Assembly: GCA_937864535.1 (NCBI GenBank)
Contig: CALMJS010000019.1
Span: 186,001 to 250,000 of the forward strand
Origin: an uncultured Paracoccaceae bacterium
Lineage (GTDB): Bacteria > Pseudomonadota > Alphaproteobacteria > Rhodobacterales > Rhodobacteraceae
DNA length: 64,000 bases
Direction of reading: 5' to 3'
Position 1 is the first letter of the stretch, and each line of letters starts with the position of its first letter. This document shows positions 29,297 to 55,123 of this stretch, piece by piece. The position numbers were made by a program, and so were the translations under genes. The notes under the pieces were generated by a model. It was not told the origin of the DNA and did not search any database. It saw only the letters and a list, made by a program, of their open reading frames with translations.

Positions 29297-29312
29297 TTTT
29301 GGTATACCAAAA
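29297..29312. promoter_or_regulatory. Perfect 16-bp GntR-type palindrome before ltnD
   Basis: TTTTGGTATACCAAAA is a perfect palindrome with the core TGGTATACCA. It lies between the Ldh_2-family gene (stop 29284) and ltnD (start 29385), where the five-gene tetronate operon would start. The same core recurs at 39749, 44539, 55053 and 55110. Confidence 0.8.
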
Positions 29313-29384
29313 CTTGCCCCATGCACCATCCCGCGATATGACTGACTCGCGGGGTGGTTCGCCCCACGCGTGAGGGAGAGAGAG

Positions 29385-30269
29385 ATGGTTAAGATCGCCG
29401 CCATTGGGCTGGGCTCTATGGGCTATGGCATGGCCGCCAGCGCGCTGCGCGCCGGGCATCAGGTCTGGGGACAGGATATCAACGCCGCGCAGATGGCGCG
29501 ACTGGTCGCCGAGGGCGGCACGCAGCTGGCCCCCGGCGATGTCGATGCGGTGATGGTCGTCGTGCTGAACGCCCCGCAGACCGAAGCGGTCCTCTTTGGT
29601 GCCGATGGCATCGCGCCGCACCTGCGCGCCGGAACGGTGGTGATCTCTTGTGCGACAGTCGCGCCCGAGTTCGCCCGCGACATGGAACAGCGCTGCGCCG
29701 CTCTGGGGCTATTGTACCTCGACGCGCCGATTTCCGGCGGCGCGGCCAAGGCCGCCTCGGGCCAGCTGACCATCATGGCCTCTGGCACCCCCGCCGCCTT
29801 TGACGCCGCGCGGCCCGTTCTGGCGGCCATTGCGCAAACCGTGTTCGAACTGGGCGATCACGCCGGACCGGGGTCCGCGATGAAGGCGACGAACCAACTG
29901 CTCGCCGGGGTCCATATCGCCGCCATGGCCGAGGCGATCACCTTTGGCATGACCCAAGGCATCGAACCGGCCAAATTTCTCGAGGTGATTTCCCAATCCG
30001 CCGGCACCAGCTGGATGCTGGAAAACCGTGCGCCGCATATCATCGACGGCGATTATACCCCGCGCAGTTCCGTCAACATCTGGCCCAAGGATTTGGGCAT
30101 CGTGCTGGACATCGCGAAATCCGCCAGGTTCAGCGCCCCGATCACCGCCGCCGCCATGCAGCAGTATCTGGCCGCCGCCGGAATGGGACTGGGCGGCGAG
30201 GACGATGCCGCCGTGGCCAAGGTCTATGCCCGCAACGCTGGCCTGACCCTGCCGGAGGGCAGCGCATGA
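29385..30269 (+). CDS. ltnD: L-threonate dehydrogenase
   Basis: A 294-residue beta-hydroxyacid dehydrogenase. The NAD site is GLGSMGYGMA near the N-terminus, the substrate loop DAPISGGAAKAASGQLT, and the catalytic lysine is in GSAMKATNQLLAG. In the known tetronate pathway LtnD oxidises L-threonate at C2 to 2-oxo-tetronate. The specific call rests on the directly following otnK, otnC and otnI genes, with otnK overlapping by four bases. The ATG at 29385 follows GAGGGAGAG; an upstream start 15 bases earlier has no ribosome site. Confidence 0.85.
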   Translation: MVKIAAIGLGSMGYGMAASALRAGHQVWGQDINAAQMARLVAEGGTQLAPGDVDAVMVVVLNAPQTEAVLFGADGIAPHLRAGTVVISCATVAPEFARDMEQRCAALGLLYLDAPISGGAAKAASGQLTIMASGTPAAFDAARPVLAAIAQTVFELGDHAGPGSAMKATNQLLAGVHIAAMAEAITFGMTQGIEPAKFLEVISQSAGTSWMLENRAPHIIDGDYTPRSSVNIWPKDLGIVLDIAKSARFSAPITAAAMQQYLAAAGMGLGGEDDAAVAKVYARNAGLTLPEGSA

Positions 30270-31537
30270 CCACGGTTCTGGGCTGTATCGCCGACGATTT
30301 CACCGGCGCGACCGATCTGGCGGGGCTGCTCGCCCGGTCCGGCGTGCGGGTTTCGCTGCGGATGGGGGTGCCGACCGGCCCGGTCGCCGACCCCGCCCCC
30401 TTCGAGGTCGTCGCGCTGAAAATTCGCACCAATCCGGTCGCGGACGCCACCGCACAGGCCCTGGCCGCGCTGGACTGGCTGCGCCAGACCGGAGCGCAGC
30501 GGTTCTATTGGAAATACTGCTCGACCTTTGACTCGACCGCCGAGGGCAATATCGGCCCCGTGGCCGAGGCGCTGATGGCCGCGCTTGGCACCGATCAGAC
30601 GATCTATTGTCCCGCCTTTCCCGAAAATGGGCGCGCGATTTTCATGGGCAACCTCTTTGTCGGGCAGCAGCCGCTGGCCGAGAGCCCGATGCGCAACCAC
30701 CCGCTGACCCCGATGCGCGACAGCAACCTGATGCGCCTCCTCGCGCCGCAGGTGCAGGGGGCGGTCGGCCTGATCGACCGCCTGACCGTCGCCAGGGGCC
30801 CCGAGGCGATCCGCGCCGCGATGACCCGCGCCGCCGCCGACCGACAGGCGCATCTGGTCGTCGATGCCGTCGCCAATGACGACCTGAGCCAGATCGCCAC
30901 CGCCTGCCGTGACTTGCCGCTGATGACCGGCGGCTCGGCGCTGGCGATGCCGCTGCCGGGGCTGTATCTGGCGGATGGCACACTCTCGGCCGATGCCGCG
31001 CGGATGGTGGTCCCCACGCTACCCGCCAGCCGGATCATCCTGTCCGGCAGCTGCTCCAGCATGACCAACCAGCAGGTCGCCGCCTATCTGGCACAGGGCC
31101 GTCCCGCCTATCAGCTCGACCCGCTGGCCATCGCGGAAAACGGCATCCAGCCGGTGCTGGACTGGCTGGCGTCGCAGGACCTGACCCGCGCGCCGCTGAT
31201 CTATGCCACCGCCAGCCCCGACAGCGTCCGCGCCGTGCAGGACAAACTGGGCGTCGCTGCGGCAGGCGAATTGATCGAACAGACCCTTGCCCGCTGTGCC
31301 GTAGCCGCCCGCGACACGGGTGCGCGGCAGATCGTCGTTGCGGGCGGGGAAACCTCGGGCGCGGTGACACAGGCGCTGGAGGTCGACCAGATGGACATCG
31401 GCCCGGAAATCGCCCCCGGTGTGCCGTGGTGTTTCGCCCAGAGCGGCGGCAGCAGGATCGCGCTGACCCTGAAATCGGGGAACTTTGGCGCGCCGACTTT
31501 CTTTACCGACGCCTTTACCACGTTGGAGGCCGCATGA
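30266..31537 (+). CDS. otnK: 3-oxo-tetronate kinase
   Basis: A 423-residue four-carbon acid sugar kinase (former DUF1537). The N-terminal domain opens with CIADDFTGATDLAGLLA, the family's substrate-binding motif, and includes WKYCSTFDSTAEGNIGP. The C-terminal nucleotide domain has the glycine-rich VVAGGETSGAVTQAL. OtnK phosphorylates 3-oxo-tetronate at O4 for the decarboxylase encoded next. Both gene ends overlap their neighbours by four bases, giving a coupled ltnD-otnK-otnC block. Confidence 0.92.
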   Translation: MTTVLGCIADDFTGATDLAGLLARSGVRVSLRMGVPTGPVADPAPFEVVALKIRTNPVADATAQALAALDWLRQTGAQRFYWKYCSTFDSTAEGNIGPVAEALMAALGTDQTIYCPAFPENGRAIFMGNLFVGQQPLAESPMRNHPLTPMRDSNLMRLLAPQVQGAVGLIDRLTVARGPEAIRAAMTRAAADRQAHLVVDAVANDDLSQIATACRDLPLMTGGSALAMPLPGLYLADGTLSADAARMVVPTLPASRIILSGSCSSMTNQQVAAYLAQGRPAYQLDPLAIAENGIQPVLDWLASQDLTRAPLIYATASPDSVRAVQDKLGVAAAGELIEQTLARCAVAARDTGARQIVVAGGETSGAVTQALEVDQMDIGPEIAPGVPWCFAQSGGSRIALTLKSGNFGAPTFFTDAFTTLEAA

Positions 31538-32181
31538 CCGCCGAAACCGCCCTGCGCGACCAGATCTGTACGCTGGCCAAATCGTTGTTCGACCGGGGGC
31601 TGACCGGCGGTTCGACCGGCAATATCAGCGCCCGCACCGACGATGGCGGCCTGCTCGTGTCGCCGACCGGCACCTCGTTCGGGCGGCTCGACCCGGCGCG
31701 GCTGTCCCGCTTTGACGCGCAGGGGCGGCTGATCGGCGGCGACAAACCGACCAAGGAAATGCCGCTCCATTCGGCCTTTTATGACACCCGCAGCACGGCG
31801 GGGGCGGTGGTCCATCTGCACGCCTGTCACTCGGTCGCGTGGTCGATGATGCCCGGGGTGGACCCGGACAACTTCCTGCCGCCGATGACGCCCTATTCGA
31901 TCATGAAACTGGGCAAGGTCAAACTGCTGCCCTATTTCCTGCCCGGCGATCCCGCCATGGGTGAGGCCGTGCGCGGTCTGGCAGGCAAACGCAGCGCCGT
32001 CATGCTGGCCAATCACGGCCCCGTCGTCGCTGGCGCCGATGTCGAGGCCGCCTGCAACGCCATCGAGGAACTGGAGGACACCGCCCGTCTGGCCATGCTG
32101 ATGCGCGGCTACGACGCCCGCATGCTCACGCCCGAGCAGATCCAGACCGTAATCACCAAATTCAACGTGGAATGGGACTGA
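31534..32181 (+). CDS. otnC: 3-oxo-tetronate 4-phosphate decarboxylase
   Basis: A 215-residue class II aldolase/adducin-fold enzyme. GLTGGSTGNISAR holds the phosphate-binding loop, and the zinc histidines are in VHLHACHSVAW plus a later His in MLANHGPVV. In the tetronate pathway OtnC decarboxylates 3-oxo-tetronate 4-phosphate to dihydroxyacetone phosphate. It overlaps otnK by four bases and otnI by one base (TGATG). Confidence 0.92.
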   Translation: MTAETALRDQICTLAKSLFDRGLTGGSTGNISARTDDGGLLVSPTGTSFGRLDPARLSRFDAQGRLIGGDKPTKEMPLHSAFYDTRSTAGAVVHLHACHSVAWSMMPGVDPDNFLPPMTPYSIMKLGKVKLLPYFLPGDPAMGEAVRGLAGKRSAVMLANHGPVVAGADVEAACNAIEELEDTARLAMLMRGYDARMLTPEQIQTVITKFNVEWD

Positions 32182-32945
32182 TGCGCTTTTCTGCCAATCT
32201 GGGGTTCCTGTGGACCGACCGCCCCCTGCCTGACGCGATCCGCGCCGCCCATGCCGCAGGCTTTGACGCGGTGGAATGCCACTGGCCCTATGCCATCCCC
32301 GCTCAGGATGTCGCCGCCGCGCTGCGCGACACCGGACTGCGGATGCTGGGCCTGAACACCGCACGCGGCGATGTCGCGGGCGGCGAAAACGGGCTGGCCG
32401 CCCTGCCCGGACGGCAGGCCGATGCCCGCGCGGCGATTGATCAGGCTCTGGACTACGCCGCCGCGATCGGGGCGGGCAATGTGCATGTCATGGGCGGGTT
32501 TGCCTCTGGCGCCGCAGCCCATCGCACCTTTGTCGAGAACCTGCACTATGCCTGTGACCGGGCCGCGCCGATGGGGATCACCATCCTGATCGAGCCGCTG
32601 AACCCCTACGATGCGCCGGGATATTTCCTGAACACCGCCACGCAGGCCGCCGCGATCATCGCCGAGGTGGACCGTCCGAACCTCAAACTGATGTTCGACT
32701 GCTACCACGTCCAACTGACCGAAGGCGATCTGACCAACCGTCTGCGGCGTCTGCTGCCGATCATCGGCCATATCCAGTTCGCCGCCGTCCCCAGTCGCGG
32801 CGCCCCCGACCACGGCGAGGTCAATTACCCCTATCTGTTTGATCTGGCGGATCAATTGGGATGGGAAACGCCGCTTGGCGCGGAATACAAACCCGGTGGC
32901 GACACCGATCTTACTTTGGGCTGGCTGACCCAGTTTCGGCCATAA
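32181..32945 (+). CDS. otnI: 2-oxo-tetronate isomerase
   Basis: A 254-residue TIM-barrel enzyme of the hydroxypyruvate isomerase (Hyi) family. Motifs are RFSANLGFLW at the N-terminus, LIEPLNPYDAPGYFLNT with a metal-binding Glu, LMFDCYHVQ and GHIQFAAVPSRGAPDHGE with the remaining ligands. OtnI interconverts 2-oxo- and 3-oxo-tetronate, joining LtnD or DenD to OtnK. The pathway from L-threonate to dihydroxyacetone phosphate is thus complete in this operon. Confidence 0.92.
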   Translation: MRFSANLGFLWTDRPLPDAIRAAHAAGFDAVECHWPYAIPAQDVAAALRDTGLRMLGLNTARGDVAGGENGLAALPGRQADARAAIDQALDYAAAIGAGNVHVMGGFASGAAAHRTFVENLHYACDRAAPMGITILIEPLNPYDAPGYFLNTATQAAAIIAEVDRPNLKLMFDCYHVQLTEGDLTNRLRRLLPIIGHIQFAAVPSRGAPDHGEVNYPYLFDLADQLGWETPLGAEYKPGGDTDLTLGWLTQFRP

Positions 32946-32955
32946 GGAGGAGCCT

Positions 32956-33891
32956 ATGACCACACTCGTTATCGGGAATTACAGCGACATCGACCATGCC
33001 GCGCTGACCCGGACCTTTGATCCGGTGTTCATCGCCGGGCCCGGCGATCTGGCGGGCCTGCCTGCCGACACCCGCGCCGCCGTCCGCGCCGTCTGTTACA
33101 AGGGCCACGCGAAATTCGACGGCAGCGCGATGGACCTCCTGCCCGCGCTGGGGCTGATTGCCAACTTTGGCGTTGGCTATGATGCCATCGACGTCACCGC
33201 CGCCACCGCACGCGGGGTCAAAGTCACGAACACCCCCGATGTCCTGAACGACGATGTGGCCGATCTGGCGGTCGGGATGCTGCTGTCGCAGGTGCGCGAA
33301 ATGGAACAGGCCAGCGCATGGGCGCGCTCCGGGCACTGGGCGGCCAAGGGCGAATATCGCCTCAACCGCAAATTCAGCGGCGGCAAGGTCGGGATCGTCG
33401 GGCTTGGCCGTATTGGCCGCGAAATCGCCGACCGTCTGGCCGCGTTCAAAATGGAGATGCATTACTACGCGCGGTCCGAAAAACAGACCCCCGGCTGGAC
33501 CTATCACGCCGATCCGGTGTCACTGGCCGCTGCGGTGGATTATCTGGTCGTCGCCTTGGTCGGCGGTGCGAGCACGGAAAAATTCGTGTCCAAGGACATG
33601 ATCGACGCTCTTGGCCCGCGCGGGATCATCGTGAACATCTCTCGCGGCACCACGATCGACGAGGCCGCCCTGCTGGACGCGCTGGAAACCGGCCGCATCG
33701 GCGGCGCGGCACTGGATGTGTTCCTGAACGAACCGAACATCGACCCGCGGTTCTATGCGCTTGACAACGTTGTGATCCAGCCGCACCAAGGCTCTGGCAC
33801 GGTAGAAACCCGCGCCGCGATGGGCCAGCTCCAGCGCGATAACGTCAGCGCGTTTTTGGCAGGACAGCCGCTGTTGACCGCCGTCAACTAG
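32956..33891 (+). CDS. D-isomer specific 2-hydroxyacid dehydrogenase (glyoxylate/hydroxypyruvate reductase-like)
   Basis: A 311-residue NAD(P)-dependent enzyme. The Rossmann motif is GLGRIGREIA at about residue 151, the substrate arginine is in NISRGTTIDEAALL and a catalytic-type His is in QPHQGSGT. AAGGAGG precedes the start, 10 bases after otnI. As last gene of the tetronate operon it may reduce a side-product oxo acid or another 2-hydroxy acid; the exact substrate cannot be told. Confidence 0.85.
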   Translation: MTTLVIGNYSDIDHAALTRTFDPVFIAGPGDLAGLPADTRAAVRAVCYKGHAKFDGSAMDLLPALGLIANFGVGYDAIDVTAATARGVKVTNTPDVLNDDVADLAVGMLLSQVREMEQASAWARSGHWAAKGEYRLNRKFSGGKVGIVGLGRIGREIADRLAAFKMEMHYYARSEKQTPGWTYHADPVSLAAAVDYLVVALVGGASTEKFVSKDMIDALGPRGIIVNISRGTTIDEAALLDALETGRIGGAALDVFLNEPNIDPRFYALDNVVIQPHQGSGTVETRAAMGQLQRDNVSAFLAGQPLLTAVN

Positions 33892-33914
33892 GCGGCCCTC
33901 TAAATAACATAGAA

Positions 33915-33951: not shown

Positions 33952-34917
33952 TTACGCAGAGGGTTTATCGTCTTCGAGGTAGTAACGGATATTATCCTCG
34001 AAACTGTCATCCGCCGTCAGACCCAGCGCCAGCGATTTTTCCGGGCGCAGATCGAACCGCCAGCCTTTGACGATGCGCTGGATGTCCGGCTGGCTCTCCC
34101 AGCGGATCAGATTTGCCGGCGCGGGGCCCGCTACAGCGGTCATCGCGTCGATCATCTGGCGGATGGTCCACATCCGGCCCGGCATCATCATACAGCGGTT
34201 CTGACCCAGATCGGCCTCGGCGATCTCGGCCCCCTTGATCAGGTTTTCCACGCATTTGCGCGGCGACAGGTAGTAATGCGGGAAATCGTCGTCCACCGGA
34301 CAAATCGCTTCGGCACCGTTCAGCGGCTCGCGCAGGATCGACGACATAAAGCTGGAGGCCGCGCGGTTCGGTTTGCCGGGGCGTACCGAAATCGTCGGCA
34401 GGCGGAACCCGCGCCCGTCCACGAAACCTTTGCGGCTATAGTCGTTCAGCAGCAGTTCCCCGACCGCTTTTTGCGCGCCATAGGATGTCTGCGGATTGAG
34501 GAAGCTATGGTCCACAATCGGGTCCGGCACTTCGCCGCCATAGACCGCGATGGACGAGGTAAACACCACGACCGGCTTGGTTTGTAGCGCCCGCGCCCGT
34601 TCCAGAACGTTCAGCGTGCCCATCATGTTGATGGACCAACCGGCGTCGAAATCCTCTTCGGCATGGGCGGACACAATCGCGGCCAGTAGGTAGATCACGT
34701 CCACCTCTGCCGACAGCACCGACGCGACCGAGGCCGGATCGGCGATGTTGCAGGCCACCGTATGCACCGGGAACGGCGCAGTGATCGGCGCCGGATCGAC
34801 CACATCGGCCAGGGTGATGGCGCTGATCTCTTTACCGCGGAGCTGCCCCCGCGCGACCAAGGCACGGGCCAGTTTTTGTCCGACGACACCGCCGCCGCCA
34901 ATAATCAGAATATTCAT
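33952..34917 (-). CDS. denD: D-erythronate dehydrogenase
   Basis: A 321-residue extended SDR/epimerase-fold enzyme. The NAD motif is IIGGGGVVGQKLA, and the catalytic residues are in FTSSIAVYGGEVP (Ser) and TSYGAQKAVGE (Y-x3-K). DenD is the known partner of otnI/K/C that oxidises D-erythronate at C2 to 2-oxo-tetronate. It is encoded convergently to the ltnD-otn operon, with a shared terminator, and lies in the operon under the 39749 operator. Thus both tetronate stereoisomers can feed the same pathway. Confidence 0.85.
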   Translation of the reverse strand: MNILIIGGGGVVGQKLARALVARGQLRGKEISAITLADVVDPAPITAPFPVHTVACNIADPASVASVLSAEVDVIYLLAAIVSAHAEEDFDAGWSINMMGTLNVLERARALQTKPVVVFTSSIAVYGGEVPDPIVDHSFLNPQTSYGAQKAVGELLLNDYSRKGFVDGRGFRLPTISVRPGKPNRAASSFMSSILREPLNGAEAICPVDDDFPHYYLSPRKCVENLIKGAEIAEADLGQNRCMMMPGRMWTIRQMIDAMTAVAGPAPANLIRWESQPDIQRIVKGWRFDLRPEKSLALGLTADDSFEDNIRYYLEDDKPSA

Positions 34918-34932
34918 CGGGGTCTCCTCTCC

Positions 34933-36081
34933 CTAAATCAGACCACGGCGGGCGAGGTTGCGCATCAACGCCGTGGTGCCAAATGTCCATTCGGGGCACT
35001 CTGTCGACAGGCGCACCGTATTTTGCAGCGCGCCCAGACCGGGTTCGCTGATCGTCACCACATCGCCGGTGTGGTGGGTAAAGCCCTGCCCCGGCGCATC
35101 GCGATCCTTGACCGGCGCGAACATCGTTCCGAGGAACAGGAAAAACCCGTCCGGATACTGGTGATGGCGACCGATGGTCTGTGCGACCAGACTGGCGGGA
35201 TCGCGGCTGATCTGGGTCATCGACGAATGCCCGTCCATAGTGAACCCATCGTCCCCGCCGACATGCATCGACAATTCGGCATGTCGAACATTGTCCAAAT
35301 CATAGGTTTCATCAAACAGGCGCACAAAAGGCCCAATCGCGCACGAGGCGTTGTTATCCTTGGCCTTACCCAGTAGCAGTGCCGAGCGCCCCTCGACATC
35401 GCGCAGGTTCACGTCATTACCCAGCGTCGCGCCCACGATCTGCCCGCGCGACGACACCGCCAGCACGATCTCTGGCTCTGGGTTGTTCCAGCGCGAAATC
35501 GGGTGCAGCCCCACGGCCGCGCCCCAGCCCACAGCGGCCATCGGCTGGCTCTTGGTGAAAATCTCGGCGTCCGGCCCGATGCCGACCTCCAGATACTGCG
35601 ACCACAGGCCTTCGTCCTGTAGCACCGATTTCACCCGCATCGCCTGTTCCGACCCCGGCTGGATGCCCGACAGGCTCTCGCCGATCACCGCTGCCACGCG
35701 GGCGCGGATCGCTTGGGCGAGGTCGGGATCACCCGCTGCGCGTTCCTCGATCACCCGTTCGACCATGCTGGCGGCAAAGGTCACGCCCGAAGCCTTGATC
35801 GCCTGAAAATCCGGCGGGGCCAGCAGGCGCAGATCATCCGCACCCGCATCGGGCGTAGAGCCGGCAACCAGTTCGGCCAGCGTGCAGACCACCGCGCCCG
35901 TCGCCGCCCGCGCCGCGCCCGCCGGGTCCGCGTGATCCAGCAGCGCCTGCATCGTCGGGATGTCCCGGCTGGTGATGTCGATCACATCCTGCCCGTCCAG
36001 CCGCACGACCGCGGGGCCGATACCGGGGCGCCACACGCGGCCCACAAAGGTGCCGTCCGATCCGTTCTCAAGTGGGAGCAT
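34933..36081 (-). CDS. XylX-like 2-keto-3-deoxy-pentonate dehydratase (FAH fold)
   Basis: A 382-residue fumarylacetoacetate-hydrolase-fold protein. Stretches such as QYLEVGIGPDAEIFTKSQPM, WNNPEPEIVLA (metal Glu), LGNDVNLRD (metal Asp) and KAKDNNASCAIGPF match what I know of Caulobacter XylX. XylX removes water from 2-keto-3-deoxy-D-xylonate to give 2-oxoglutarate semialdehyde in the Weimberg pathway. An XylD-like dehydratase is encoded at 44616 under a promoter with the same operator. The stereochemistry of the real substrate is open. It sits 16 bases upstream of denD in one operon. Confidence 0.82.
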   Translation of the reverse strand: MLPLENGSDGTFVGRVWRPGIGPAVVRLDGQDVIDITSRDIPTMQALLDHADPAGAARAATGAVVCTLAELVAGSTPDAGADDLRLLAPPDFQAIKASGVTFAASMVERVIEERAAGDPDLAQAIRARVAAVIGESLSGIQPGSEQAMRVKSVLQDEGLWSQYLEVGIGPDAEIFTKSQPMAAVGWGAAVGLHPISRWNNPEPEIVLAVSSRGQIVGATLGNDVNLRDVEGRSALLLGKAKDNNASCAIGPFVRLFDETYDLDNVRHAELSMHVGGDDGFTMDGHSSMTQISRDPASLVAQTIGRHHQYPDGFFLFLGTMFAPVKDRDAPGQGFTHHTGDVVTISEPGLGALQNTVRLSTECPEWTFGTTALMRNLARRGLI

Positions 36082-36090
36082 CGCGTCCTC

Positions 36091-37473
36091 TCAGTCTAGC
36101 GCGGGCAGAATTTTGCCCGGATTCAGGATATTATTGGGGTCAAAGGCCGTCTTGATCGCCCGCATATAGGCCAGCGCGGGACCGTGTTCGGCCTGCATGA
36201 ACTTCTGTTTGCCCAGCCCGATCCCGTGTTCGCCCGACACCGTACCGCCCAGACGCAGCGCGGTTTTCGCCAGCGCATTGGTGAACTCTTCGGCGCGGGC
36301 CATTTCGTCGGCGTTGGCCGGATCGACACTGATCCCGGCGTGGAAATTCCCGTCGCCCACATGCCCCACGATGGTCGAGGTCAGCCCCAGCGTCACCGCA
36401 TCGCGCTGCGCCTGCAACACCGCCTCGGCCAGTTTGGAAATCGGCACGCAGACATCGGTCGGCCAGATATGCCCCCCGGTGCCAAGCGCCGCGCTGGCAT
36501 AATGCGATTTGTGCCGCATCGCCCAGAGCGCGGTGCGCTCTTCGGTGGTGGTGGCGGTTTTCCACCCCTCCATCCCGAAATCCCCCGCGATGGTGGCAAA
36601 GAGGTCCGCCTGTTCGGCCACACCGGCGGGCGAGCCGTGGAATTCCAGAAACAGATGCGGCACCTCTGGCAGGTCCGCGCCGGAATATTTTTTGAATCCG
36701 CGCACCATTTGTTCATCGACCAGTTCGATCCGCGCCATCGGAATGGCCGACTGGATGGTCAGGATCACACAGTTCACCGCATCCTCGACGCTGGGGAACC
36801 GGCAGGTCGCGGCAAGGGTGGCCTCCGGGATGCCATGCAGCCGCACGGTCAGTTCGGTGATGATGCCCAGCGTGCCCTCTGACCCGATCAGCAGATGGTT
36901 GAGGTCATAGCCCGTCGATGACTTGCGCGCCTGACTGCCGGTGCGGATGATCGTCCCGTCGGCCATCACGGCTTCAAGCGCCAGTACGTTATCGCGCATC
37001 GTCCCATAGCGCACCGCCGTCGTGCCGCTGGCCCGTGTGGCGGTCATCCCGCCGATGCTGGCATTCGCGCCCGGATCGACCGAGAAAAACAGCCCCGTCG
37101 CCCGCAGCTCTTCGTTCAGGGCGACACGGGTCAGGCCGGGCTGCACCACGGCGTTCAGATCCTCGGCATTGACGGCCAGAACCCGGTTCATCCGCCCCAT
37201 GTCCAGACTGATCCCGCCTTGGGTGCACAGGTGCTGCCCCTCGAGCGAGGTCGCCGTACCATAGGCCACGATCGGGCATTTATGCGCATTGCAGACGCGC
37301 ACGATCGCCGCTACCTCTTCGGTGGTTTCGGGATAGGCCACCGCATCCGGCAGGGTCAGCGGATAGTAGGTTTCATTGCGGCCATGCAGGTCACGATCCG
37401 CAAGGGTGGTAACCAGTCGGTCCCCCAGAAGTGAGGCCAGTTCGGGGCGGGCAGCGTCAAAAGGTGTCGTCAT
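36091..37473 (-). CDS. FAD-linked oxidase, GlcD / D-2-hydroxyacid dehydrogenase type
   Basis: A 460-residue flavoprotein with an N-terminal VAO/PCMH FAD-binding domain (residues about 40-220, including CPIVAYGTATSLEGQ and NASIGGMTATRASGTTAVRY) and a C-terminal cap with HVGDGNFHAGI and SGEHGIGLGKQ. It oxidises a D-2-hydroxy acid such as D-lactate or glycolate and passes electrons to the quinone pool or a flavoprotein. Its start overlaps the upstream dehydratase stop by four bases. A lactate-type product of deoxy-sugar acid cleavage is one possible substrate. Confidence 0.85.
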   Translation of the reverse strand: MTTPFDAARPELASLLGDRLVTTLADRDLHGRNETYYPLTLPDAVAYPETTEEVAAIVRVCNAHKCPIVAYGTATSLEGQHLCTQGGISLDMGRMNRVLAVNAEDLNAVVQPGLTRVALNEELRATGLFFSVDPGANASIGGMTATRASGTTAVRYGTMRDNVLALEAVMADGTIIRTGSQARKSSTGYDLNHLLIGSEGTLGIITELTVRLHGIPEATLAATCRFPSVEDAVNCVILTIQSAIPMARIELVDEQMVRGFKKYSGADLPEVPHLFLEFHGSPAGVAEQADLFATIAGDFGMEGWKTATTTEERTALWAMRHKSHYASAALGTGGHIWPTDVCVPISKLAEAVLQAQRDAVTLGLTSTIVGHVGDGNFHAGISVDPANADEMARAEEFTNALAKTALRLGGTVSGEHGIGLGKQKFMQAEHGPALAYMRAIKTAFDPNNILNPGKILPALD

Positions 37474-38666: not shown

Positions 38667-38669
38667 CGC

Positions 38670-39748: not shown

Positions 39749-39766
39749 AAAATGGTATACCATTTT
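39749..39766. promoter_or_regulatory. Perfect 18-bp GntR-type palindrome between idnD- and idnO-like genes
   Basis: AAAATGGTATACCATTTT is a perfect palindrome in the 118-base divergent region. One site could control both the five-gene leftward operon and the two-gene rightward operon. Confidence 0.85.
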
Positions 39767-40590: not shown

Positions 40591-40614
40591 TCTGTCTTTG
40601 GGAGGAGAGAGACA

Positions 40615-42300: not shown

Positions 42301-42303
42301 CGC

Positions 42304-42993: not shown

Positions 42994-43002
42994 CGGAGCC
43001 TC

Positions 43003-44538: not shown

Positions 44539-44556
44539 CATTTGGTATACCAAATG
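44539..44556. promoter_or_regulatory. Perfect 18-bp GntR-type palindrome between the secreted-protein and XylD-like genes
   Basis: CATTTGGTATACCAAATG is a perfect palindrome in the 112-base divergent region. It would control the leftward azlCD-rraA-SDR operon and the rightward XylD-SDR operon. Confidence 0.85.
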
Positions 44557-46397: not shown

Positions 46398-46406
46398 GGA
46401 CCAACG

Positions 46407-48103: not shown

Positions 48104-48826
48104 TTACAGCGTCATGCCCCCGTCGATATTCACGCATTGGCCGGTCATATAGCGGCTCTCGTCGCTGGACAGGTAGACCACCAGATCCGCGATCTCTTCG
48201 GCTTCGCCCAGACGGCCCATCGGTTGACGGGCGATAAACTGCTTCATCGCGGCGTCATAATCGCCGGTGGCGTGCAGACGCTGGTGCAGGCTGGGGCTGT
48301 CCACCGTGCCCGGCGCGATACAGTTGCAGCGAATGCCGCGCGTGATGAAATCGGCTGCCACCTGTTTCGTCAGGCCGATGGTTGCGGCCTTGGAGGTGCC
48401 ATAGATGAACCGGTTGGGCAGCCCGCGCAGGGTCGAACAGACGCTGGCAATGTTCACAATCGCCCCCGCACCACGGTCCAGCATCCCCGGCAGCGCCGCC
48501 TGAATGGCGTGGAAATGCGCCCGCACGTTCAGGTTCATCGCGAAATCGAACTGGTCATCCGTTGCCTCTAGGATCGTGCCCGAATGCACGACACCCGAAC
48601 AGTTCACCAGAATATCCGGCTGGGCCTCGCGCACGGCGGCCTGTAGCGCCGCGCGGTCGGTCGCATCGAGGCCAAAGCTCTGCGCGACCTCCAGCCCGTC
48701 CAGCAGATCACCGCGCAAATCGGTGGCGATCACCTCTGCCCCTTCGCGGGCCAATGCGATGGCGCTGGCGCGGCCGATCCCCTGCCCGGCTGCGGTCACA
48801 AATGCACGTTTTCCCTGTAGTCTCAT
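48104..48826 (-). CDS. SDR, 2-keto-3-deoxy-L-fuconate dehydrogenase-like
   Basis: A 240-residue SDR with TAAGQGIGRASAIALAREGA (the first glycine of the usual TG motif is Ala), N-C-S-G in place of NNAG, and Y-G-T-S-K. This pattern is that of DHRS6/BDH2-like enzymes, several of which oxidise 2-keto-3-deoxy-L-fuconate at C4. The LRA6-like hydrolase encoded at 55888 would be the next step in that route, which supports the guess. It is encoded 24 bases after the Gfo/Idh gene. Confidence 0.8.
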   Translation of the reverse strand: MRLQGKRAFVTAAGQGIGRASAIALAREGAEVIATDLRGDLLDGLEVAQSFGLDATDRAALQAAVREAQPDILVNCSGVVHSGTILEATDDQFDFAMNLNVRAHFHAIQAALPGMLDRGAGAIVNIASVCSTLRGLPNRFIYGTSKAATIGLTKQVAADFITRGIRCNCIAPGTVDSPSLHQRLHATGDYDAAMKQFIARQPMGRLGEAEEIADLVVYLSSDESRYMTGQCVNIDGGMTL

Positions 48827-48850
48827 ATCTCTAATCCCGATCTTGCGCCC

Positions 48851-49918
48851 TCAGACGCCTCTATAATCCGGCCCGACCTGCCCCAGACCCACGGGCTGCC
48901 CCGTGTGCCCGGACAGCGCCGTGGCCAAGGTGATTTCCAGCGCAGCCAGCCCGTCGGACCCGCTGCACAAAATATCATCCGGCTGGCCCGTGGCGACAAC
49001 GCGGGCGAACCGGCGCATCTGTTCCAGCAGCGGATCGACCCGCGCCATCGCGGGCGCGTCCTGCGCAGTCAGCGGCTTGCGCCATTCCGTTTCGCCGCCC
49101 TGCCCGTTCAGCCACAGACGCAGCGACGGGAATTCCAGCGCGCCCCGCGTGCCGACGATCCGCAGATAATCCTGACCAGAGGCCGCGAGCATCGGGTTTT
49201 CCCCGCTCGCCGCCTCGAATGCCCATGGGCTGGCCCCGGCGTCGGACATCAGGACGGACCCCAACGCGCCATTGGCAAAATGCAGCGACAGCGCGGCGGT
49301 ATCCTCGACCGCCAGCCCGCGCCGGTCACTGGACACCAGCGCCGACACCCGATCAATCGGACCCATCAGGAAGTGCAGCAAATCCACCTCATGGCTGAGG
49401 TTTTGCAGCAAGGGCCCCGCGCCCGGTTCCCGCCGCCACGGCACATCGTAATAGCTGTCATGTTTGCGCAGCGACCACAGCGCCTGCACCCCGACCAGAT
49501 CGCCAAGCTGCCTGATCCGGTCCCGCGCCGCGATGGAAAACGGGTGACAGCGGCGATGATGGCCCGTGAACACCGGCAGGCCACGGGCCTCGGCGCGGGC
49601 GATCACCTGCCGCGCCTCAGCCAGCGATCCCGCCAGCGGTTTTTCAACGATCACCGCCCATCCCCGATCCAGCGCCGCCAGCGCCGCGCCCGCGTGGTCC
49701 GGCGTCGGTGTGGCGATGATCGCCGCGCGGGTATGCTCCGGCACCTCTGCTATCGTTGCGACCACCGGCAGACCCATGTCGCGCAACTGGTCCCGCCGCG
49801 CCGCATAGGGTTCCACAACTGCTGTCAGGGTGACCTCCGGACAGGCCAGCGCCACCTCTATGTGGCGTTCGCCGATCTGCCCGCCACCGATGACGCAGAG
49901 GGGAGTCGCTGCCGTCAC
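48851..49918 (-). CDS. Gfo/Idh/MocA family oxidoreductase
   Basis: A 355-residue NAD(P)-dependent sugar or sugar acid dehydrogenase. The cofactor motif is VIGGGQIGERHIE, the catalytic lysine region is EKPLAG near residue 90, and the substrate region includes LSHEVDLLHFL. I placed the start at a GTG (49918) that overlaps the stop of the UxaA-family gene as GTGA; the open frame continues upstream only inside that gene. This overlap implies coupled translation. Confidence 0.82.
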   Translation of the reverse strand: MTAATPLCVIGGGQIGERHIEVALACPEVTLTAVVEPYAARRDQLRDMGLPVVATIAEVPEHTRAAIIATPTPDHAGAALAALDRGWAVIVEKPLAGSLAEARQVIARAEARGLPVFTGHHRRCHPFSIAARDRIRQLGDLVGVQALWSLRKHDSYYDVPWRREPGAGPLLQNLSHEVDLLHFLMGPIDRVSALVSSDRRGLAVEDTAALSLHFANGALGSVLMSDAGASPWAFEAASGENPMLAASGQDYLRIVGTRGALEFPSLRLWLNGQGGETEWRKPLTAQDAPAMARVDPLLEQMRRFARVVATGQPDDILCSGSDGLAALEITLATALSGHTGQPVGLGQVGPDYRGV

Positions 49919-51417
49919 ATCACCGCCCCGACCTGCCACGGCACGAATTCATAATCGCCCAGACCCTGCGCTTCGGATTTCGATTTCTCGCCCGAGGCCA
50001 TGCGCAGCCACATCTCATAGATCTCGCGGCCGACCTCTTCGACGGTGGCACCGTCGGTCAGGATGCGGCCTGCGTTCACGTCCATGTCTTCGTGCAAGCG
50101 GTTATACATTTCGGTGTTGGTCGCGACCTTCATCGACGGGCTGGGCTTGGCCCCAAAGGCCGAGCCGCGTCCGGTGGTGAACGCCACGAGGTTACAGCCC
50201 GACGCGATCTGCCCCGTCACACTGGCCGGGTCATAGCCCGGGCTGTCCATAAAGGTGAAGCCCTTGGCGGTGACAGGCTCGGCGTATTTGTAGACGCCGG
50301 TCAGCGGGGTCGTGCCGCCCTTGGCCGCAGCGCCCAACGATTTTTCGAGGATCGTCGTCAACCCGCCCTTTTTGTTACCGGGGCTGGGGTTGTTGTCCAT
50401 GCTGCCCCCGTTGCGGGCGGTGTAATCCTCCCACCAATGGATCAGGCTGATCAGTTTATCCCCGACGGCGCGATCCACCGCGCGGGCGGTCAGCAGATGT
50501 TCGGCCCCGTAAATTTCGGGCGTTTCAGCCAGAACGCCGGTGCCGCCCTGCGCCACCAACAGATCGCAGGCATATCCCAGCGCCGGGTTCGCGGTCACAC
50601 CGGACCACGCATCCGATCCGCCGCACTGCAAGGCAACCATCAGCTCGCTCGCCGGACAGACCTCGCGGGTGGCCTTGTTGACCTCGGGCAGCATCGCCTC
50701 GATCTTCTTGATGCCCAGTTCGACGGTTTTGCGCAGACCGCCCACGTCCTGAATGTTCATCGTCTGGAACAGCGGACCGGGGGTCAGGCCATTGGCCTCG
50801 ATCAGCCAGTCGATCTGCATCATCTCGCACCCCAGACCGGCCATCAGCACACCGCCGACATTGGGGTTGCGGGCATAGCCCCACAGCACGCGCTGCAACA
50901 GTTCGAACCCGGTGCCGTCGCCGCCCATCGCGCAGCCGGTGCCATGGACAAAGGCCACGACGCCATCGACATTGGGATAGGCCGCCAGACGGTCCTCGGT
51001 GAAATGCTGCGCAATCAGCCGCGCCGCGGTGGCGGAACAGTTCACGCTGGTCAGCACCGCGATATAGTTGCGGGTCCCGACCCGGCCCGTGGCACGGCGA
51101 TAGCCCATGAACGTGTCGCGCTGCGTCGCCGGGGCGACAGGCCGCAGGTTGGTGGAAAACTCGTAGGTCGCCTCGACATTGCGGAATTCGAGGTTGTGCG
51201 TATGCACATGCTCGCCCGCGGCGATATCCTCTGCCGCATAGCCGATGACCTGCGCATATTTATAGACCGGCGCGCCCTTGGGGATATCGGCGGTTGCGAT
51301 TTTGTGACCACGGGGGATGGGCTGCGTTGCGCCCTCCTCTCCGACGGTCAGGGCGCGAAGGGCGGTGACGACGTTGTCAGACGCAGACAGGCGAACGGTG
51401 GTCATAATCTTTGCCAT
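49915..51417 (-). CDS. UxaA-family (altronate/galactarate) dehydratase
   Basis: A 500-residue fusion of an N-terminal SAF domain (HKIATADIPKGAPVYKYAQV, about residues 35-85) and the two GD_AH domains. The latter include NCSATAARLIAQHF, HGTGCAMGGDGTGFELLQR and LQCGGSDAWSGVTANPALG. The family dehydrates D-altronate, galactarate or related acids using Fe(II) or an Fe-S site. It is the second dehydratase type in this regulon. The start is uncertain: 51417 has no good ribosome site, and 51405 is possible. A hairpin with a T-run lies directly upstream. Confidence 0.87.
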   Translation of the reverse strand: MAKIMTTVRLSASDNVVTALRALTVGEEGATQPIPRGHKIATADIPKGAPVYKYAQVIGYAAEDIAAGEHVHTHNLEFRNVEATYEFSTNLRPVAPATQRDTFMGYRRATGRVGTRNYIAVLTSVNCSATAARLIAQHFTEDRLAAYPNVDGVVAFVHGTGCAMGGDGTGFELLQRVLWGYARNPNVGGVLMAGLGCEMMQIDWLIEANGLTPGPLFQTMNIQDVGGLRKTVELGIKKIEAMLPEVNKATREVCPASELMVALQCGGSDAWSGVTANPALGYACDLLVAQGGTGVLAETPEIYGAEHLLTARAVDRAVGDKLISLIHWWEDYTARNGGSMDNNPSPGNKKGGLTTILEKSLGAAAKGGTTPLTGVYKYAEPVTAKGFTFMDSPGYDPASVTGQIASGCNLVAFTTGRGSAFGAKPSPSMKVATNTEMYNRLHEDMDVNAGRILTDGATVEEVGREIYEMWLRMASGEKSKSEAQGLGDYEFVPWQVGAVM

Positions 51418-51426
51418 ACTCAAAGG

Positions 51427-51456
51427 AAAACGCGGGGCGATCCGAACCGCCCCGCG
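51427..51456 (-). terminator. Hairpin with T-run between dctM-like and UxaA-family genes
   Basis: CGCGGGGCG (51431-51439) and CGCCCCGCG (51448-51456) form a perfect 9-bp stem with an 8-base loop. On the minus strand it is followed by TTTTCCTTT. It fits an intrinsic terminator inside the operon, reducing expression of the four catabolic genes downstream relative to the transporter. Confidence 0.7.
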
Positions 51457-51465
51457 CTGTTACGT

Positions 51466-53091
51466 TTACAGGAACACTGTCACGATATTCGGGAACACCA
51501 GAAGGATCAGCAGCGCCAGGAGTTGCAAGCAGATGAACGGGAGGAAGCCAGCGAAAATCTGCGTCAACGTGATGTGCGACGGTGCCACCGATTTCAGGTA
51601 GAACGCAGCCGGACCAAACGGCGGCGACAAGAAGCTGACCTGCATGTTCATACAGAACACCACGCCGAACCAGACCGCCACGTGTTTCGGGTCGAGCGAG
51701 CCGATAAACCCGAGTTCCTCGACCGGCAGCTTGAGCACGATCGGCAGGAACACCGGCATGATCAGCAGCACGATGCCAACCCAGTCCATGAACATCCCCA
51801 TGATCAGGAAGATGAACATCATCACAAAGATCACGCCCATCGTCGGCAGTTCCGATGCGACGATCATATTCGCCACATAGGTCGGACCGCCCGCCAGCGT
51901 ATAGGCCGCAGCCAGCGCCGCCGCACCGATCGTCACCCAGATAATGGTGCCGGTGGATTTCAGCGTCCGCATCAGGCTGTCCCAGACGATGTCAAAGGTC
52001 ATCTCGCGGCGGATCAGGCCGATCACAAACACCGCAACGGTGCCCATTCCAGCGGCTTCGGTGATGCCGGTGATGCCCATATAGATCGAGCCCAGAACCA
52101 CACCGATCACGATGGTCGGGGCGATCAGGCCCTTGCCCATCTCCCAGCCTTCGTCGGCGCGCTGTTTGCCAACCAGTTTCATCGCGGCAAAGCACAGCAC
52201 AAAGGCGCCGATGATATAGGGAATATGCGACACCATCCCCAGCGCGATCGGCTCGACGCCTTCGCGGATGGCGTTTTCACCGGTGACGGTAAAGAACACC
52301 GCACGCGCCAGCATCACAGCCGTGATCCACATGCCGAACCGACCGATAAAGCCGATAAAGCGCAGACCTTTTTCCTTGCCACGCGGCTCGCTCGGATCGA
52401 TTTCCGGCAGCGGGGCGAGGGCCGGGTTCAACTGCGTGCGCACCACGATATAGATCATAAAGAACGACGCCAGCATGAAACCCGGCAGGAACGAGGCGGT
52501 GAACAGCGCCTTGATCGAGGTTTCGGTGACCAGACCGTAGAAAATCAGCACGATCGACGGCGGGATCATTGTCCCCAGCGACCCGGACGCACAGATCGTC
52601 CCGATAGCGAGGTTCTGGTTATACCCCAGCCGCAGCATCTGCGGCAGCGCGATCAGACCCAGCAGAACCACTTCGCCGCCGATGATGCCCGACATGGCCG
52701 CCATGATCACCGCCATCACCGAAGTGACCAGCGCGATCCCGCCCCGCAGGCCGGACAGCCAGCGGTTCAGCGACGCATACATGTCACGGGCGATGCCCGA
52801 CCGTTCCAAGAGGGCCGCCATAAAGATAAACAATGGCACCGAGATCAGAACATAGTTGGTCATCTGCCGGTAAACGGCCTGACCCAGCACCGACAGCGGC
52901 CCCTTGCCGAAATTGCCATAGAGCAGTTCCGGCCCGAACTTCATCACCAGCACCGCCACCGCGAGAAACGCAGAGGCAAAGCCGAGCGGCATACCGATGC
53001 CGAGCAGAATGAACATACCGATCAGCAGATAGAGGCTGATCAAGGCCACGCTATCGACCTTCATCCACGCGAGGAGATCAAGAAATTCCAT
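51466..53091 (-). CDS. dctM: TRAP transporter large permease (DctM)
   Basis: A 541-residue permease, longer than classic DctM (about 430) because of an inserted hydrophilic and membrane stretch around residues 240-370. Family segments include SGSLGTMIPPSIVLIFYGLV, the YGLVTETSI loop and FMDWVGIVLLIMPVFLPIV. It works with the small permease and the DctP-type binding protein in Na+-driven uptake of organic acids. The start at 53091 was chosen next to the end of dctQ. Confidence 0.9.
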   Translation of the reverse strand: MEFLDLLAWMKVDSVALISLYLLIGMFILLGIGMPLGFASAFLAVAVLVMKFGPELLYGNFGKGPLSVLGQAVYRQMTNYVLISVPLFIFMAALLERSGIARDMYASLNRWLSGLRGGIALVTSVMAVIMAAMSGIIGGEVVLLGLIALPQMLRLGYNQNLAIGTICASGSLGTMIPPSIVLIFYGLVTETSIKALFTASFLPGFMLASFFMIYIVVRTQLNPALAPLPEIDPSEPRGKEKGLRFIGFIGRFGMWITAVMLARAVFFTVTGENAIREGVEPIALGMVSHIPYIIGAFVLCFAAMKLVGKQRADEGWEMGKGLIAPTIVIGVVLGSIYMGITGITEAAGMGTVAVFVIGLIRREMTFDIVWDSLMRTLKSTGTIIWVTIGAAALAAAYTLAGGPTYVANMIVASELPTMGVIFVMMFIFLIMGMFMDWVGIVLLIMPVFLPIVLKLPVEELGFIGSLDPKHVAVWFGVVFCMNMQVSFLSPPFGPAAFYLKSVAPSHITLTQIFAGFLPFICLQLLALLILLVFPNIVTVFL

Positions 53092-53092
53092 A

Positions 53093-53893
53093 TTAGTTCT
53101 CCAGCGTCCGGCGAAGGTTTTCGATTTCGGTTTCGTCGGGGGCGTCGGAATGGGCTTCGGGCGCCTTATTCCAGTCGGCAATCAGGTTCGACACAGCCTG
53201 CACCGTCACCAGAACGATGATGAACAGGATCGAGGGCTTCAGAATGCCCGGAATGGGTGGATCCCATGCGGTGCCAAAGGTCTCCATCCGCAGCATCCGC
53301 GTGACGGCATCGGAATACCCGCCCCAGACCAGCGAAAAGGTAAAGGTGACCAGCAGCAGCAGCGACAGAACGTCAGCCGACTTTTGCATCCAGCGCGGCA
53401 TCAGATCATACAGAACGTAGATCCGGATGTGACTGCGCTGCTGCATGGCGTATTGCCCCGCGAACAGGAACACGAACGACGCGATCCACAGCGACAGTTC
53501 GTTTGCCCAGAGCGTCGGGCGGGAAAACGTGTAGCGCGACACCACTTCGTAGAACATCACCAGAACCGTCAGCGCGATCATGATCATCGCCATCCGCGAT
53601 GTGACCAGCGACAGGATGTCGAAAATCCCGTCCGGTTCGGATTCGATGTCGCCCTTGGTGTCGGACAGGTACAAAGAAGTGAACAGAATAGAGCCCGCGA
53701 TCAGCAGCAGCATGACCGTAACCATCGGTCGTCCCGCCGGCCGGATCATTTCGTGCATGCCGATCGCATCGGCGGTAAAGAGCTTGAGCAGGACGAGGAC
53801 CGCAAACATCAGCAGCGCCAGTCCGGTAAAGCCTATCATGGCCAGTCGGACAGGCCCCCTGGAGCGGCCAAGCCATAGGCTTTTGTTTTCCAT
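53093..53893 (-). CDS. dctQ: TRAP transporter small permease (DctQ), extended form
   Basis: A 266-residue protein, about 90 residues longer than a typical DctQ. An N-terminal extension carries two hydrophobic segments (about residues 17-40 and 57-78). The DctQ core follows, with VVSRYTFSRPTLWANELSLW near residues 117-136. A charged tail (PDETEIENLRRTLEN) ends it. Such extended forms accompany long DctM proteins. Confidence 0.85.
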   Translation of the reverse strand: MENKSLWLGRSRGPVRLAMIGFTGLALLMFAVLVLLKLFTADAIGMHEMIRPAGRPMVTVMLLLIAGSILFTSLYLSDTKGDIESEPDGIFDILSLVTSRMAMIMIALTVLVMFYEVVSRYTFSRPTLWANELSLWIASFVFLFAGQYAMQQRSHIRIYVLYDLMPRWMQKSADVLSLLLLVTFTFSLVWGGYSDAVTRMLRMETFGTAWDPPIPGILKPSILFIIVLVTVQAVSNLIADWNKAPEAHSDAPDETEIENLRRTLEN

Positions 53894-53930
53894 ATCATTC
53901 TCCCTGCGGACATGGAAATTACAACAAAGA

Positions 53931-53956
53931 CAATGAGCCCCGAACGGGGCTCATTG
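53931..53956 (-). terminator. Hairpin between dctP and dctQ
   Basis: CAATGAGCCCC and GGGGCTCATTG make a perfect 11-bp stem with a 4-base loop, 15 bases after the dctP stop. The minus-strand sequence beyond is TCTTTGTTGT, moderately T-rich. Partial termination or 3-prime end protection here would give more binding protein than membrane subunits. Confidence 0.7.
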
Positions 53957-53971
53957 CTATATCAAGGCGGA

Positions 53972-54988
53972 TTAGTCGCCCAGCAGACCCAGCTGGCTCA
54001 GATAGGTCTTGTGGCTGGCGAGCAGGGCAGCAGCCTCGGGCGAACGGGTTCCCCAGTCTTCCCATGCAACCTGGGCAGCTTGACGGAAGGCAGCGCGGTC
54101 TTCGGCCGACCATGCGTGCAGCGTCACACCGGCAGCGGTGAGCGCGTCAGCAGCTTCGGCGTTGGCCTTTTCGTTGTAGAGGGCGATCTGGAACGAAACC
54201 TTCTGCCACGCGGTGTCGATGATACGACGCTGCTGTTCGGTCATGCCGTTCCAGACGTCGAGGTTACAGGCCAGGTGGTCCGACGGCATCGAGTGGAAGC
54301 CCGGATAGGTGGCGTGCTTGACGATGTCATAGAGACCCAGACCAACGTTGTTGGCCAGACCCGAGGCGTCAGCCCCGTCGATGATGCCGGTTTCCAGCGC
54401 GGTAAAGATTTCGGTAAAGTCCATCACGATCGGAGACGCGCCCAGACCCTGGAAGATTTCGGTTTCCATGCCCGGAGGCGAACGGAACTTCCAGCCCTTG
54501 AGGTCTTCAAAGCCAGCCAGCGGCTTGGACGAGGACAGCGATTCCTGACCGTAGATCGACCAGCCGATCAGCTGCATGTTCTGGGCGTTGTACAGCGCCT
54601 GGGCTGCATCGTAACCGCCGCCGTAGTACAGCCACGAATACTGCTGCCACGGGGTGTCATAGCCACCCATGATGTCGCCGACGAACTGGAACGCGGGGTT
54701 CTTGCCGGTCTGGTAGGCACCGCCGGTGGCGTCGCAGTCCAGAATGCCGTTGATGGCCGCGTCAAAGGTTTCCGTCGTTGCAACGACCGAAGACGAATAG
54801 AACATCTCGATGGTGATATCACCGCCAGACATGGTCTGAACGTCATCAACCCACTGAGCCAGACGTTTGCCGGTCGGGTGCTCGGTGGCGTAGTGCGTCT
54901 GGATACGCAGCGTGATCGGGTCAGCAGCTGCAGCGGTTGCCATAATGGCGGCTGCGCCTGCGGTCATCATAAGAGATTTGATTTTCAT
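53972..54988 (-). CDS. dctP: TRAP transporter substrate-binding protein (DctP)
   Basis: A 338-residue periplasmic binding protein with a signal peptide ending near residue 22 (AAA-DPI). The core pattern DLKGWKFRSPPGMETEIFQG holds the arginine that binds the substrate carboxylate in TRAP proteins. AGGGAGGAAG precedes the start at 54988. Two TGGTATACCA palindromes lie upstream, shared with the divergent gntR gene. A sugar acid ligand is inferred from the operon. Confidence 0.9.
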   Translation of the reverse strand: MKIKSLMMTAGAAAIMATAAAADPITLRIQTHYATEHPTGKRLAQWVDDVQTMSGGDITIEMFYSSSVVATTETFDAAINGILDCDATGGAYQTGKNPAFQFVGDIMGGYDTPWQQYSWLYYGGGYDAAQALYNAQNMQLIGWSIYGQESLSSSKPLAGFEDLKGWKFRSPPGMETEIFQGLGASPIVMDFTEIFTALETGIIDGADASGLANNVGLGLYDIVKHATYPGFHSMPSDHLACNLDVWNGMTEQQRRIIDTAWQKVSFQIALYNEKANAEAADALTAAGVTLHAWSAEDRAAFRQAAQVAWEDWGTRSPEAAALLASHKTYLSQLGLLGD

Positions 54989-55052
54989 ACTTCCTCCCTT
55001 GGCGGCCAGTTTGCCACCGTGTCTACCAAGCAGATCCTCCAACCTGCTGCGA

Positions 55053-55068
55053 AGATGGTATACCATCT
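55053..55068. promoter_or_regulatory. Perfect 16-bp GntR-type palindrome, dctP side
   Basis: AGATGGTATACCATCT is a perfect palindrome 65 bases upstream of dctP. Its centre is 56 bases from that of the second site at 55110, near five helical turns. Confidence 0.85.
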
Positions 55069-55109
55069 GCAAATCACGGTAGCCAAAGCTGTCTCGACAA
55101 TCAACAAGT

Positions 55110-55123
55110 TTTGGTATACCAAA
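55110..55123. promoter_or_regulatory. Perfect 14-bp GntR-type palindrome, gntR side
   Basis: TTTGGTATACCAAA is a perfect palindrome 80 bases before the GntR-type start, suiting autoregulation and joint control of dctP. Confidence 0.85.

Follow-up and report, generated by a model that had tools for sequence, protein, structure and literature searches.

We analysed a 64,000-nucleotide stretch of DNA from an uncultured Paracoccaceae bacterium (contig CALMJS010000019.1, positions 186,001 to 250,000; hereafter, the window), in which five palindromic sites with the common core TGGTATACCA lie before sugar-acid genes and beside a gene, at 55204, for a GntR regulator of the FCD type. Comparison of related genomes indicates, with a probability of about 0.87, that the 55204 protein is the repressor to which the TGGTATACCA operators belong, and that through them it controls its own gene and a sugar-acid regulon of several operons. 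An earlier note on the window had proposed that one regulator with five sites controls this block of genes; comparative genomics supports the proposal, in that the copy number of the core follows the regulator orthologue and the sites lie at homologous promoters.

The five palindromes and the regulator gene

Exact TGGTATACCA cores were detected at positions 29300, 39753, 44543, 55056 and 55112 of the window, compared with an expected count of 0.00 in 100 dinucleotide shuffles, and no further match was found in the window at one mismatch. With the mean of 0.78 copies per genome in 236 family genomes without a regulator homologue as background, and a genome of 3.75 Mb assumed, the chance of at least five copies in 64 kb is roughly 3e-12 (Poisson). 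The features of the sites given in the earlier note were all recovered: each core lies in the middle of a 14-18-base perfect palindrome (Table 1), all five palindromes are situated in promoter regions between predicted genes, and the core (TGGT-AT-ACCA) agrees with the FadR-subfamily consensus with a 2-nt gap between GT and AC, TKGT-N2-ACMA (PMC4494728). Of the six further perfect palindromes in the window that reach 14 bases or more, none includes the TGGTATACCA core.

In the whole genome (3.70 Mb, 35 contigs), six exact copies of TGGTATACCA were present against three of the reversed pattern. Five of the six are inside the window, and the frequent copies elsewhere in the genome that the earlier note had named as speaking against its proposal were not found. 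The sixth copy (C20:60341-60350) is 15 bases before the start of a short-chain dehydrogenase/reductase (SDR) gene and adjoins Gfo/Idh-like and LacI-like frames, the last two named by eye; it may be background, because genomes without the regulator average 0.78 copies. Separately, TAGTATACCA (G000:C19:335832-335841, in the same genome), which is one mismatch off the core, overlaps a perfect ACTAATATATTAGT palindrome that lies approximately 60 bases ahead of where another FCD gene probably starts, and is perhaps the own operator of that adjoining regulator (C19:335126).

The 55204 protein consists of an N-terminal winged helix (PF00392, 58.8 bits; cut-off 27) and a C-terminal FCD domain (PF07729, 82.3 bits; cut-off 24.3). 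As the earlier note had stated, it is the sole FadR-type regulator in the window, one of 13 FCD proteins in the genome, and is encoded beside the last two sites. In the AlphaFold model, built from a 20-sequence alignment, the effector domain is predicted to be all-helical and to resemble solved FCD proteins; the best solved-structure matches were GntR-family regulators, including AlkR (VanR), Atu1419 (VanR) and the FCD protein TM0439. Residues E31, R32, R42, R46 and E47 were invariant in 20/20 aligned orthologues and match by position the FadR residues tabled in PMC4494728, with R32, R42 and R46 corresponding, by ungapped position, to Arg35, Arg45 and Arg49 of FadR. Arginine at the first of these positions is linked in that paper to the G in TKGT, in agreement with the TGGT of the core. 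D129, H133, H177 and H199 were likewise invariant in 20/20 aligned orthologues; Asp/His metal sites are a feature of many, not all, FCD members, and by analogy these four residues may be metal ligands. The nearest titled relatives of the protein are from Rhodobacteraceae.

Table 1. Predicted sites, promoter, regulator and gene runs in the window
Feature	Position	Strand	Remarks
Predicted operator 1, TTTTGGTATACCAAAA	29297-29312		Perfect palindrome, 16 bases; before ltnD-otnKCI
Predicted operator 2, AAAATGGTATACCATTTT	39749-39766		Perfect palindrome, 18 bases; common to operons B and C
Predicted operator 3, CATTTGGTATACCAAATG	44539-44556		Perfect palindrome, 18 bases; common to operons D and E
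Predicted operator 4 (dctP side), AGATGGTATACCATCT	55053-55068		Perfect palindrome, 16 bases; at about +1 of predicted dctP promoter
Predicted operator 5 (gntR side), TTTGGTATACCAAA	55110-55123		Perfect palindrome, 14 bases; overlaps predicted gntR -10
Predicted dctP promoter, TTGATT-N17-TACCGT	55076-55104	-	From comparative logo and spacing; overlaps predicted gntR -35 region (TCGACA, + strand)
FCD-type GntR regulator, 227 aa	55204-55887	+	PF00392, PF07729; AlphaFold mean pLDDT (predicted local distance difference test) 90.4
Operon A: ltnD, otnK, otnC, otnI, 2-hydroxyacid dehydrogenase	29385-33891	+	ltnD, otnK, otnC over NCBIfam cut-off; otnI below (290.8 of 325)
Operon B: idnD-like, enolase-superfamily dehydratase, GlcD-type FAD-linked oxidase, 382-aa FAH-type protein (2-keto-3-deoxy-aldonate dehydratase-like), denD	33952-39710	-	denD over cut-off; idnD below (343.4 of 469)
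Operon C: SDR (gluconate 5-dehydrogenase-like, 316 of 408 bits), 3-hydroxyisobutyrate dehydrogenase-like	39829-41532	+	
Operon D: 160-aa open reading frame, azlC, azlD, RraA-like, SDR	41548-44503	-	
Operon E: IlvD/Edd-type dehydratase (sugar-acid dehydratase-like, 'xylD'), SDR	44616-47144	+	NCBIfam subfamily PRK13017 over cut-off
Operon F: dctP, dctQ, dctM (tripartite ATP-independent periplasmic transporter, TRAP), galactarate/altronate-dehydratase-like, Gfo/Idh/MocA, SDR, EamA permease	47219-54988	-	
FAH hydrolase, 2,4-didehydro-3-deoxy-L-rhamnonate hydrolase-like (388.2 of 500 bits)	55888-56733	+	

Copy number, site positions and promoter layout in related genomes

We counted TGGTATACCA in 295 family genomes (294 genera), 59 of which contained a homologue of the regulator at E<=1e-30; these were divided at a score gap from 191 to 177 bits into 35 with strong orthologues (own genome included) and 24 with weaker homologues. 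Genomes with a strong orthologue (n=34, own genome excluded) showed a median of 5 and a mean of 5.82 copies, with at least two in 34/34 and at least three in 32/34. The mean was 1.25 in the genomes with weaker homologues (at least three copies in 3/24) and 0.78 in the 236 genomes without a homologue (at least two in 37, at least three in 16). The difference between the strong-orthologue and no-homologue groups gave a Mann-Whitney p of 3e-22, uncorrected for kinship, and the reversed-pattern control did not differ between groups (means 1.76, 1.50 and 1.65 for strong, weak and none). Regulator presence predicts TGGTATACCA copy number across the 295 family genomes. The only other genome of the same genus (G117) contained one copy and no homologue at E<=1e-30.

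Site positions were then mapped in regulator loci from a scan of titled records, of which we analysed 62 out of 74 (L084-L145, with identities of 48% or more) and omitted the 12 weaker ones; this set shares several genomes with the family-genome set and is not independent of it. The 62 loci (1.18 Mb) contained 118 exact copies against one control copy. Upstream zones of 250 bp before mapped homologues of window genes account for 11% of the bases and held 104 of the 118 copies, and none lay within the mapped homologues themselves, which cover 45%. Two copies were detected within 400 bp upstream of gntR in 34 loci, one in 12 and none in 16. The two sites of a pair were 54-58 bp apart in 30/34 cases, 111 in two and 24 in two, and in the 30 regular pairs this spacing was independent of the width of the dctP-gntR gap (177 to 236; r 0.05).

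In 18 stretches from 17 genomes, sites were read from the map near gntR in 16, and many, not all, of these 17 genomes carried additional sites ahead of regulon genes, such as xylD/azlC, SDR1/idnD or ltnD. Homologous promoters of other genera carry the sites as well, even under different gene order, and predicted operators before orthologous genes were found in several genera, with the exceptions described below. When sites were aligned by promoter from 67 sources, window included (14 of the 62 titled loci were left out as repeats, L106 wrongly, as its genome was absent from the stretches), six were obtained before ltnD in five sources (the window and four others) and 19 before xylD in 17 sources, with sites at idnD in eight sources and at SDR1 in ten.

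The layout around the paired sites was conserved. Of the 30 regular pairs and the window, 26/31 showed a TTGATT-type -35, a 17-base spacer and a TA-N3-T -10, with the dctP-side operator 8-11 bases beyond. The gntR-side operator directly precedes the dctP -35 and coincides, on the opposite strand, with the expected gntR -10, and the pair of operators 54-58 bp apart brackets the predicted dctP promoter. At the other promoters, the idnD operator was preceded by TTGACA in 8/8 cases, and CTTGCA was present ahead of the operator in 7/10 cases at SDR1 and 14/19 at xylD (abutting it in 11/19); neither element was found ahead of the six ltnD operators.

Taken together, sequence and comparative genomics point to a model in which a dimer of the 55204 protein would bind TGGTATACCA, with its A/T-rich arms, through the winged helix. 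As the operators are on or beside predicted promoter elements, the bound repressor would block RNA polymerase at dctP, gntR, idnD, SDR1 and xylD. FCD biology and the invariant D129, H133, H177 and H199 suggest that the metal-type FCD pocket may bind a sugar acid or its keto form, either taken up through the TRAP system or derived from what that system imports, and that this would free the protein from DNA. Judging from their family names, the enzymes would convert aldonates and tetronates to keto-deoxy acids and then to small central metabolites.

Exceptions and alternative explanations

Several observations weigh against the model of a single repressor acting through these sites. In the own genome, near-copies were not enriched (34 at up to one mismatch, against 101 for the reversed control), and there is therefore no cloud of weaker copies. 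The cut at 190 bits that defines the orthologues was chosen after the list had been viewed; the genomes are related, so that the tests treat dependent data as independent; and one of the 16 genomes with at least three copies and no homologue (G136) has seven. Among the 62 loci, 14 of the 118 copies were without a mapped window-type gene within 250 bp and 16 loci had no exact site close to gntR, and the pair spacing correlated with gap width (r 0.79) when the two 111-bp and two 24-bp pairs were added. A plain sigma-70 consensus scan of positions 54900-55300 found no promoter, and for this reason the promoter predictions rest on conservation. To the same side belong the Hoeflea genome, which has an orthologue and a single copy, and exact copies that stand beside other genes. 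In seven Salipiger-clade genomes, 11 of 23 exact copies lie beside EamA-type permease genes 31-35% identical to that of the window, and one genome (G063) carries five copies with neither a regulator homologue nor window-type neighbours. Since the core stands beside other genes, other FCD proteins may use TGGTATACCA, and copies of this sort are contained in the genome counts; by itself, the core does not mark this regulon uniquely.

The exceptional loci were followed individually. Nine of the 62 lack any exact copy, namely seven of the Salipiger/Citreicella group, Phaeobacter marinintestinus and Hoeflea. All seven Salipiger-clade loci contain a single copy with one mismatch, between the FAD-oxidase gene and the SDR3-gntR-FAH genes and behind a CTTGCA element as at xylD; the idea that these regulators use another motif was set aside, as 7/7 carry this copy at their own promoter. 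The P. marinintestinus genome has exact copies at garD and xylD and additional ones, including a copy located 1.7 kb ahead of the 382-aa gene, and the one copy of the Hoeflea genome is between xylD and the 382-aa gene. Among the 16 loci that lack a site close to gntR, whole-genome counts were obtained for 12 and ranged from 1 to 8 copies each. The other 12 of the 23 Salipiger-clade copies had no close window homologue alongside, and these exact copies were not counted as regulon members, the mapped neighbours being at best 31-40% identical to window proteins. The Salipiger-clade copies suggest that the core is also used by a second regulon, or that the regulon has been remodelled there.

It could well be, at somewhat below even odds, that the regulon is real but comprises fewer than 28 genes, and that some downstream genes (azlCD, EamA, RraA and the denD end) have promoters of their own. 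The earlier note had counted about 28 sugar-acid genes. The number agrees with the 28 downstream genes in seven directions that we obtained from the lists of open reading frames, taking each co-directed gene run as one operon, but azlC, azlD, the EamA permease and the 160-aa frame are not obviously sugar-acid genes. Operon extents were drawn from spacing only, and azlC is approximately 450 bp from its site, behind the 160-aa frame; on the other hand, the gaps within runs are short (up to ~80 bases) or overlapping, and a large part of the gene order is kept in other genera.

The direction of control could also differ. Some FCD proteins act as activators, and the gntR-side operator, which in the conserved layout adjoins the dctP -35 on its upstream side, could serve a 55204 protein that activates, or that represses gntR and activates dctP from this far operator. 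We consider this improbable: the second operator, at about +1 of dctP, fits repression, as do the sites at idnD, SDR1 and xylD, which lie downstream of conserved -35-like boxes.

Lower still is the probability that another FCD paralogue, or the LysR protein encoded at 56788, regulates some or all of the sites. The genome encodes 12 FCD proteins besides 55204, the same core is found at other loci in Salipiger-clade genomes, and the FCD gene at C19:335126 has its near-match 61 bases before the likely start. However, the DNA-binding domains of those 12 proteins are only 21-40% identical to that of 55204, no exact genomic copy adjoins another FCD gene (the smallest distance is 7.5 kb, on C20), LysR was mapped in 12/62 loci with the paired sites persisting without it, and copy number tracks the 55204 orthologue. 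Finally, near-identical sequences within one 27-kb stretch could be a repeat, a mobile element or chance A/T-rich palindromes, an explanation of negligible probability given that only the core and short arms are common to the five sites and that the positions are promoter-specific and recur across genera with 118 copies against one in the control.

Gene content and known systems

The names of the genes downstream of the sites are of unequal precision. ltnD, otnK, otnC and denD passed NCBIfam cut-offs, while otnI, idnD, the galactarate dehydratase and the FAH hydrolase remained below and are named at family level; the galactarate model scored 386.8 of 730.85 bits against the operon F protein, which therefore carries a family-level name only. 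The IlvD/Edd protein exceeded the cut-off of a subfamily model titled dihydroxy-acid dehydratase and fell below those for L-arabinonate (512.7 of 882 bits) and YjhG/YagF D-xylonate (151.1 of 808). Its nearest solved relatives are the IlvD/Edd dehydratase 5OYN, which we take to be a xylonate dehydratase, and a galactonate dehydratase. Because the sugar-acid models were below cut-off and the nearest relatives are mixed, 'xylD' is used as a working name. For the 382-aa protein, the nearest relative is an FAH-family protein, followed by a weak match to 2-keto-3-deoxy-D-arabinonate dehydratase. The 160-aa frame (44021-44503, minus strand), between the xylD/azlC site and azlC, has a start resembling a signal sequence and matched no Pfam family at E<=0.01; relatives with 31-48% identity were found in 10 other genome stretches. 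For the TRAP ligand, 51 sequences of solved structures matched at E<=1e-10, representing binding proteins for several ligands, and gave no firm assignment.

Two neighbouring groups lie outside these runs. At 24914-28148, genes of the zinc-uptake type for an ATP-binding cassette transporter (ABC-3 permease, ATPase and ZnuA) stand beside a Fur-family regulator gene. At 57812-60978, SDR, 3-hydroxyisobutyrate dehydrogenase-like and DRL-type oxidoreductase genes are without an exact operator here and accompany gntR-FAH in some relatives.

In motif and architecture the system follows a known FCD (FadR/VanR) pattern, of which this regulon is a further case, because such operators and double sites in divergons have been described (PMC4494728) and the same logic is seen in Atu1419 (PMC7797058). 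Divergons that include the regulator gene and hold two operators at a nearly constant distance form a described class, and the 55204 system shares this arrangement and the TKGT-N2-ACMA consensus with UxuR and other FadR-subfamily regulators with a 2-nt gap (PMC4494728). It differs from them in that 55204 is below every NCBIfam named-regulator cut-off: all eight such models listed at E<=1e-8 (for PhnR, LldR, NanR, GlcC, Uxu operon regulator, ExuR and PdhR) fell short, the best being TIGR03338 with 94.5 of 271.5 bits and the Uxu operon regulator model giving 49.9 of 442.

The 55204 model matched the fold of the DNA complex of Atu1419, a VanR-type FCD repressor of Agrobacterium fabrum (Foldseek E 7.2e-10). 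Atu1419 likewise recognizes a 10-bp perfect palindrome, with a TATA centre, at its own promoter region and a second gene, one site being over a -10 and another between -35 and -10; in contrast, Atu1419 has the core ATGTATACAT, a tetramer can loop its sites, which are separated by 190 bp as compared with 54-58 bp here, and its region concerns hydroxycinnamate degradation (PMC7797058). DgoR, the FadR-type repressor of D-galactonate genes in E. coli, resembles the present case as a sugar-acid repressor with two inverted repeats overlapping its own promoter and a metal pocket with Asp and His residues (PMC7674646), but it is a distant sequence match only (7C7E, 33.9 bits), controls other genes and has motifs with a 3-nt centre (PMC4494728). 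By description, the L-gulonate TRAP/GntR locus of C. salexigens also brings together a TRAP transporter, a GntR regulator and sugar-acid enzymes (cited in PMC5507952). The available part of PMC5507952 treats sugar-acid regulons with Rhodobacteraceae among the hosts and does not describe this one. No description of this regulon was found among the papers listed in searches of the open-licence PMC literature, although it may stand in RegPrecise; no bacterial-regulator title was among the matches listed there for the exact core, and no paper there combined GGTATACC with GntR.

The analysis provides a candidate regulon for a large block of sugar-acid enzymes of the L-threonate, D-erythronate, aldonate, idonate and galactarate types, and ties genes of unclear role (the 160-aa frame, azlCD and the 382-aa FAH-type protein) to it. 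The 30 natural promoter variants with fixed operator geometry would be useful for the study of paired-operator repression by FCD proteins. More tentatively, one local regulator might be the master switch for several non-phosphorylating sugar-acid routes in Rhodobacterales, in which the fixed 54-58 bp pair would lock two overlapping divergent promoters, so that dctPQM uptake and the regulator act as one unit, and a tetramer may hold the pair.

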